Source: Acidaminococcus hominis (GTDB lineage Bacteria > Bacillota > Negativicutes > Acidaminococcales > Acidaminococcaceae). From it: a DNA stretch of 56,330 nt. Each line of letters begins with the position of its first letter. The first letter of the stretch is position 1. Below, piece after piece: positions 1,230-54,713 of this stretch. The notes under the pieces are model-generated. The model made no database searches. It had not been told where the DNA came from and saw only the letters and a list, made by a program, of their open reading frames with translations. The stretch spans positions 185,516 through 241,845 of the forward strand of contig NZ_OLMM01000002.1 of NCBI RefSeq assembly GCF_900291475.1. Reading direction: 5' to 3'. A program made the position numbers and the translations under genes.

Positions 1230-1807
1230 AAAAGGTGGTGTGAAATAATACTTATCCCCGAAAAAAACGGCTTGCGAACTCAAAAAAGTTCGCAAGCCGT
1301 TTTCTGTTTTTTATAACAGTATCTAATAAACTTCCTCAGTCAGTCCTACGGACTGCCAGCCCCTACAACGCTTTGCGGCCGCATCCAAACATCCACAAGT
1401 TTTCCTATGGATGTTTGGTCAATAAGGCCCATGCGATAGCTGCCTGCAAAGCAAGTCCGGAGGACGCAGCTGCGCAGCTAGCAGCGAACCGCTCAGGGGC
1501 TGGTCTTAGGCCTATGCGAGTCATGTGCAAAACGGGTATAGGAAAGGAATCTATGGCATGTAGATAAATTTCTACTTCTATTACCCTCTAGAACTTGACC
1601 AGTATCGGCATAGAATGCTTCCTGAGTGGTTCGCCGTGTTCCGTTCCCCTTCACCCTGCGGGTTCGGCTCACGGACGGCTATCACATAGGTCGCATAATA
1701 CCAAATGTCCTCGGGGAACTGCATTGACATTTGGATGCGACCGTAAAGCGTGTAGGAAGTGTCGCCGAAGGCGACGATAGAAGTTTCATTATTTCACACC
1801 CCCTTTT
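1230..1807. repeat. Fold-back (MITE-like) element, copy A
   Basis: A 578-bp non-coding unit bounded by 20-bp inverted repeats: 1230-1249 and the complement of 1788-1807 match at 19 of 20 bases (consensus AAAAGGGGGTGTGAAATAAT). Inside, the two arms remain homologous in inverted orientation for about 200 bases: AAACTTC, a short hairpin, CGCTTT(A/G)CGG, CGCATCCAAA, ATG(C/T)GATAGC and GCGAACC(A/G)CTCAGG occur in the same order from both ends. A terminator-like hairpin sits only in the left arm. Each arm also forms local stems, for example at 1382-1419 and 1689-1745. No convincing reading frame is present. A related copy occupies 46008-48034. Confidence 0.8.
1267..1300. terminator. Bidirectional terminator-like hairpin inside element copy A
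   Basis: A perfect 14-bp stem (arms 1267-1280 and 1287-1300) with a 6-base loop is flanked by an A-run on the left and a T-rich run on the right, giving intrinsic-terminator geometry in both directions. It lies 74 bases behind the LytTR gene and probably ends its transcript. The same stem (GGCTTGCGAACT) occurs at 46026-46059 in copy B. Confidence 0.7.
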
Positions 1808-43365: not shown

Positions 43366-43442
43366 CGGGGCGTAGCGCAGTTTGGTAGCGCGCCTGGTTC
43401 GGGACTAGGAGGCCGCAGGTTCGAATCCTGTCGCCCCGACCA
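43366..43442 (+). tRNA. tRNA-Pro (anticodon CGG)
   Basis: A complete 77-base cloverleaf including encoded CCA. The acceptor stem is CGGGGCG/CGCCCCG, the D arm contains AGTTTGGTAG, the anticodon stem CCTGG/CTAGG encloses loop TTCGGGA with anticodon CGG (reads CCG), and the T arm contains GGTTCGAATCC. It has its own promoter and terminator. Confidence 0.97.
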
Positions 43443-54519: not shown

Positions 54520-54713
54520 AAAAGAAAGAGCCCTACAATGCCGTACCAATTCCGAGTTTTGAACCTGCATGAGCAGGTGGGTGCCCTCCCTGCCACTTCT
54601 GATGTCCCCTCGAAAGGGCATATCATCAACGACCGGAGTACACGGGCTCCCTTATAGAGAGTGTTGGCTCAAAACATATGGAATTCGACTCGCACATCGG
54701 AGGGTTGCTCTTT
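54520..54713 (-). ncRNA. ssrS: 6S-RNA-like transcript
   Basis: About 194 bases with the rod-like fold of 6S RNA. The 5' end (AGAGC, CCCT) pairs with the 3' end (AGGG, CTCT); AATTCC pairs with GGAATT; TTTTGAGCC pairs with GGTTCAAAA over 9 bp. An unpaired bubble of about 18 bases on the 5' side faces a 3' side containing a small hairpin (CTGC-TCAT-GCAG). The apical rod follows (GCCC, CTCC, TGATG, CCCT closing a TTCG loop). The closing stem is followed by TTTCTTTTTTT, an intrinsic terminator, and a good promoter stands at the right distance. No reading frame is plausible. Confidence 0.65.

Follow-up and report, generated by a model that had tools for sequence, protein, structure and literature searches.

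A mosaic, gene-less repeat of Acidaminococcus hominis with a folded module that recurs in many Bacillota

What is the gene-free stretch that lies between two convergent open reading frames (ORFs) at positions 1230–1807 of a 56,330-nucleotide region of the Acidaminococcus hominis genome? We call the whole region analyzed the window and the gene-free stretch element A. The original prediction, made from the sequence alone, described a palindrome with terminal inverted repeats (TIRs) and proposed a miniature inverted-repeat transposable element (MITE) mobilized in trans. We find that A belongs to a mosaic repeat without genes, of which the genome contains many copies, and we favor the view that it was inserted into the loop of a terminator hairpin. 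Its main module, M, is a member of a family of gene-free, folded insertions present in many Bacillota.

The palindrome itself is real. The two ends (1230–1249 and 1788–1807) are inverted copies of each other over 20 nt with 95% complementarity, which matches the predicted 19 of 20. The predicted inside-facing homology is also present, since A aligns with its own reverse complement between its positions 95 and 562 (480 columns, 62% identity, E = 1.1e-28). The RNA fold predicted for A (−256.3 kcal/mol) is far more stable than those of 100 dinucleotide shuffles (−164.9 ± 7.2 kcal/mol, z = −12.8), none of which was as good. As claimed, A contains no gene: no ORF of at least 80 amino acids lies wholly within it, and three overlap its edges. 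A terminator hairpin assigned to the left arm alone is present, with perfect arms (1264–1280 and 1287–1303) of 17 nt instead of the stated 14 bp. A blastn search of the genome with A returned 143 pieces. Because the borders of these pieces recur at the same positions of A, the element must be a mosaic. Copies compared side by side diverge just outside the arms and their A/T tracts, so that homology does not run far beyond 1230 or 1807. The picture of a dispersed, palindromic, non-autonomous-looking repeat without a gene and with an asymmetric terminator hairpin is therefore upheld. By blastn, A found no match in 40 relatives, eight of them congeners, and none in phages and plasmids, which speaks against carriage of A by either of the latter.

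Between the arms, A is a series of modules. The internal hairpin (1264–1303), which resembles a bidirectional terminator with an A tract before and a T tract after it, is followed by module H (1324–1373, plus strand). This module comprises AAACTTC, a hairpin around TCAGTCC/GGACTG, and CCCCT (1360–1364) as the 5′ strand of the left slot stem. The stem is closed by AGGGG (1495–1499) at the start of the imperfectly palindromic module C (1495–1621, plus strand), and the first M module (1370–1493, plus strand; L050:2886-3009) scores 128.1 bits with the covariance model described below. The second M module (1625–1749, minus strand; L050:3141-3265; 122.8 bits) sits between CTTCCT (1618–1623) and AGGAAG (1754–1759). 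It is followed by module F (1751–1787, plus strand), which consists of AGGAAG, a hairpin (GTCGCC, 1761–1766; GGCGAC, 1770–1775) and GAAGTTT. Module M, of about 125 nt, thus occurs twice in A, once per strand. Minimal elements of about 330 bp (L039, L040 and L045) are without M, and the empty stem tips in L039 read CCCCTACACGCTTGCAGGGG and TTCCTGCAAGCGTGTAGGAA. More complete copies, A among them, carry M in one tip or in both, oriented either way, as in CTTCCTGCAAGCGT[TGCGG...CGAACCGC]TGTAGGAAG. Module C and the end modules also recur, and many arrays have no terminator arms. Module order and orientation vary among 71 clusters in the genome, which form a mosaic of palindromic units in intergenic DNA of the kind known from bacterial interspersed mosaic elements (BIMEs) and repetitive extragenic palindromic (REP) sequences. 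At L168, a 791-bp stretch with two M modules is present three times in tandem. A part of module C (1564–1589, GTAGATAAATTTCTACT) resembles parts of a Cas12a repeat, a likeness that we dismissed as chance.

To describe M, we built a covariance model, R1, from 78 modules. The resulting fold is strongly supported. Among the modules of the same genome (set A1), 98.1% of 2570 paired cells hold standard pairs and compensatory changes occur at 24 of 33 pairs, with 572 compensatory cells compared to 165 after shuffling. Sliding the partners by one to three columns lowers pairing to 33.5–38.3%. For set A2 (27 distinct sequences from the class outside this genome), the values are 93.1% standard pairs and compensatory changes at 32 of 33 pairs, and in a third set of 41 distinct sequences (A3), mainly from streptococci, Lachnospiraceae, Butyrivibrio and lactobacilli, 93.3% and 29 of 33. 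Sets A2 and A3 were aligned to R1 and so lean towards the model, whereas A1 was not, though its structure was derived from it. The module contains a conserved internal loop that is not helical, the unpaired loop bases are conserved across Bacillota, and left and right halves are found in differing combinations. On the M strand, G·T cells outnumber A·C cells (31:11, 15:3 and 36:8). This excess points to RNA, with the caveat that both kinds of cell are rare and that related sequences do not count as independent. Rfam covariance models gave no match to the element in the window or to the loci searched, and no family for M; elsewhere in the window they hit a 6S RNA (54526–54708, minus strand) and a tRNA gene (43366–43439, plus strand).

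R1 finds at least 148 matches in the same genome at E values up to 0.01 (150 of 785 candidates scored) and no match in any of eight congeners. By contig (n = 146), 64 modules fall on C8 (302 kb), 28 on C13 (264 kb) and 22 on C7 (1.08 Mb). Their density reaches 212 per Mb on C8 and 106 on C13, versus 20–34 on C4, C7 and C9. Of 300 genomes of the class, 52 match, the present one included, and many of the weaker matches among them cover model positions 72–116 only. Further copies lie in spacers of ribosomal RNA (rRNA) operons, after groEL and after other stop codons. Five loci from other genomes of the class have M in or beside an rRNA operon (L124, L128, L129, L133 and L137); it lies between the 5S and 23S genes at L124 and just after the 23S gene at L128. 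L127:5858-6452 holds five tandem M units of 118 bp each that start at a stop codon.

Comparison with congeners suggests what the ends of A are. Fragments of 23–38 bp that match the left arm occur in four of them (G002, G003, G005 and G008), where the sequence mostly forms a complete, unsplit hairpin bordered by A and T tracts, for example AAAAAGGGGCTGTGAAATAAT-GCGCAAGT-ATTATTTCACAGCCCCTTTTTT at L194. The pattern TGTGAAA-N2-32-TTTCACA has 77, 105, 69, 37, 24 and 22 matches in six congeners and none in two, with 0 to 2 for the reversed control. In the genome of A there are four, compared to nine for the control. These matches were inspected in part, and some in G003 have long unpaired loops. In G005, an intact hairpin lies at the corresponding place downstream of the counterpart of the gene left of L040. 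With a GC-rich stem, A and T tracts after genes and an intact form in relatives, the supposed TIRs look like the halves of a split intrinsic terminator hairpin of the bidirectional type, as judged from sequence features. Convergent genes flank 29 of 63 module-bearing intergenic regions versus 10 of 114 others of at least 60 bp at the same loci, according to our own simple gene caller. Insertion into bidirectional terminators would produce this bias, but so would the loss of insertions near promoters. Since A carries a terminator-like hairpin of its own, termination is probably kept. At three congener loci (L193, L201 and L215), the spacers that join terminator hairpins contain GTCACTAGT-like words in repeated form together with a GCCAGC/GCTGGC hairpin, which may be a further composite repeat in this genus.

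The original prediction had likened the tips of A to those of IS4/IS1182-type insertion sequences (ISs), and this did not hold. The tip GTGTGAAATAAT occurs at 30 places in the genome at up to one mismatch (6 of them not assigned to an element), and no IS is bounded by it. The only pair at an IS-like distance (C4:516923/519402) is an element of the family of A with an IS3-family IS inside. Tips of this type are not supported, as in congeners the ends also stand alone as intact hairpins. No full-length IS among the assigned places shares these inverted repeats, and no target duplication was seen outside the arms in 15 copies compared. What survives of the proposed MITE is the dispersed, non-autonomous palindrome; a single MITE it is not, A being a mosaic whose module M also occurs separately in the rRNA-methylating gene rumA of other bacteria. 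The IS3-family guest (orfB, NF033516, 6.8e-73) has 14 full copies in the genome. In 11 of these, joining the flanks yields a stem-loop whose loop is the site of the IS; L231 and L235 keep a partial stem and L238 does not fit. The duplications measure 3 bp in eight copies, 4 bp in one and 2 bp in one, with none in four. Hairpin tips inside elements are occupied alike by this IS and by M, the flanks of which form a perfect stem of at least 6 bp in 51 of 124 distinct pairs, versus 10.5 after shuffling. We rejected M as a derivative of the IS3-family guest because the ends differ, and we consider an integron attC unlikely because the ends do not fit its consensus.

The position of M in other bacteria points to how it may move. 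A pattern of its two conserved loops finds at least 71 stretches among named genomes, in which R1 matches 78 times. Outside A. hominis, M often begins inside rumA, at the codons HV^E. Its first arm encodes HVExVxLL followed by a stop, and the displaced native end of rumA (RTA-ExVxLL) follows M; the gene is spared because the protein receives a substitute end from the first part of M. In 13 of 54 M loci examined, rumA or a C-terminal fragment of it ends at M, and in 9 HVExVxLL precedes and RTA-ExVxLL follows the module. Conversely, among 30 rumA loci, 25 have a readable HVE motif, of which 4 carry M, 1 a degenerate hairpin and 20 a plain end, so that empty sites exist in relatives. The same codon is used in different families of bacteria, and the attB annotated in the record of the rum phage phiSC070807 (GCATCACGTGGAGTGTGT) covers the HVE codons of rumA. 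Integration in rumA by single serine integrases has been reported (PMC4701971). At L297, M overlaps the final part of an ORF that matches a serine recombinase, and at L134 two M modules bracket a recombinase-like stretch. In A. hominis, 23 bp separate the end of rumA from L042, which is the most complete relative of A. At L135 (G105:C1:132078-132775), a second, C-terminal rumA fragment and then M follow about 1 kb after an intact rumA.

Among the matches listed, 38 loci, mostly in streptococci, hold the same M module; only two of them are among the 54 M loci above. At L273, near-identical DNA runs on from M to a MefE-like and a Mel-like gene, identified from the encoded proteins and from annotated relatives. 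This DNA starts within 4 bases of L273:3131, that is, at M, in 28 of the 37 other loci. From L273:3131 on, M therefore looks like the left end of Mega (the mef(E)/mel element), the left end being the one compared.

Taken together, we assign a probability of about one half to the reading that A is a composite insertion in a terminator loop, with M belonging to Bacillota-wide folded, gene-less insertions moved in trans by rumA-type serine integrases. M is then most likely a minimal non-autonomous integrative element that was amplified here into BIME-like mosaics. It would travel as DNA, through site-specific recombination within a short core around T/GA. The catalysts may be serine integrases of the rumA type, as the shared site and the neighboring recombinases suggest. 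In this genome hairpin tips would serve as targets, and because each insertion makes new ones, elements would grow into trees. From the positions of the copies, mostly in transcribed but untranslated DNA, we infer that the fold is kept because the insert must be harmless, and thus inert, as RNA.

Several observations weigh against this reading. No mobilizer came to light in this genome: a tblastn search with three phage proteins, covering one fifth of it, found no serine-recombinase relative. Serine integrases are not known to need a folded site, so that such an enzyme leaves the fold of M unexplained. G·T pairs are scarce in M, though commoner than A·C, and M occurs in both orientations within single elements, so that not every copy is likely to act as RNA. 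The flanks of A have no match in congeners and thus provide no empty site of A, while the genes flanking L040 lie about 4 kb apart in G005, so that one side only is comparable. The arms of an element match each other only slightly better than shuffled arms do (17.83 versus 17.10 of 27 in 24 rows from 23 elements, one of them on both strands; 59 of 2000 shuffles were as high). The pattern of M occurs in viral contigs in one stretch only, and the origin of modules C, H and F is left unexplained.

Other explanations account for part of these data. A classic MITE, with arms that are true TIRs recognized by a DDE transposase in trans and with the short hairpins of congeners as its deletion derivatives, would explain 20-nt inverted ends, many copies and the lack of a gene. 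We consider it unlikely, given that no IS with these tips was found and that the copies compared share no constant duplication beyond the arms, and given the terminator-type A and T tracts around the intact hairpins that follow genes and the many M modules in arrays without these ends. No better in our estimate is the idea that M is primarily a regulatory or processing RNA, for example of rumA, that was copied around the genome with incidental mobility. The strong covariation, the internal loop, the G·T excess on one strand and the many copies that follow genes on the same strand or sit in rRNA spacers all suit an RNA. Its presence at just 4 of 25 readable rumA ends, insertion after codon HV with a rebuilt gene end, use of both orientations within one element, and at least 148 copies in one species with none in eight congeners do not.

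A slightly smaller chance goes to amplification without a dedicated enzyme, in which template switching during replication and gene conversion at palindromes maintain the pairing of the arms and distribute hairpin tips. Repeated, precise insertion at a single rumA codon in different bacterial families and the conservation of unpaired loop bases across Bacillota are hard to reconcile with this process, which would fit the very high Watson–Crick fidelity, the scarce G·T pairs and the tandem triplicate at L168. Least probable is a REP/BIME-type repeat mobilized by a REP-associated tyrosine transposase (RAYT, a Y1 transposase), even though the repeat has hairpin modules in mosaic arrays, lies between genes and, like enterobacterial REPs (PMC1525189), hosts an IS3-family IS. 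The Y1_Tnp domain (PF01797) has no match in this genome and a match in 17 of 25 genomes searched, which speaks against a RAYT as mobilizer here. M is also far larger than a REP hairpin.

How does a composite insertion of this kind relate to known systems? Like BIMEs, A-type elements are palindromic, intergenic, mosaic and multi-copy, and they host an IS3-family IS in hairpins, as the REP-targeting IS1397 and ISKpn1 do in REP hairpins (PMC1525189). They differ in their units of about 125 nt with a conserved two-domain fold, in the lack of a RAYT gene, in lying inside terminator loops and nested in each other, and in the occurrence of M at rumA. ERIC sequences are folded units of roughly 125 bp in transcribed intergenic DNA, and BOX elements are modular, so that M resembles both by general description. 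We know of no rumA site, terminator splitting or Bacillota-wide spread for ERIC or BOX, and these features set M apart as far as such descriptions go. With rumA-specific integrative and conjugative elements and prophages that use a single serine integrase (PMC4701971), M has in common the HVE codons and the rebuilt gene end; unlike them, it is gene-less, about 125 nt long and also present at many other places. Mega shares an M copy as its left end, and its class IV insertions lie in rumA (PMC4321634). Unlike M, it carries resistance genes.

The open-access literature searched listed no description of the element. That M forms a separate class is a serious possibility. More tentatively than the reading above, it may represent a new class of mobile DNA: gene-less units of 120–130 nt with a conserved two-domain fold in many Bacillota, which rebuild the end of rumA as they integrate at its attB, occupy hairpin tips and end larger elements such as Mega. 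In A. hominis they would have formed self-nesting hairpin trees in a family of terminators that now has few intact copies there. For Mega, which is not known to have a transposase of its own, M is a candidate physical end. Covariation makes the fold of M, which has no Rfam entry, directly testable. Terminators would be linked into one system with the attachment sites of integrative elements and with folded repeats scattered through genomes. If this is true, such insertions stay harmless by landing in a terminator loop and bringing a terminator, or by landing in a gene end and bringing a gene end.
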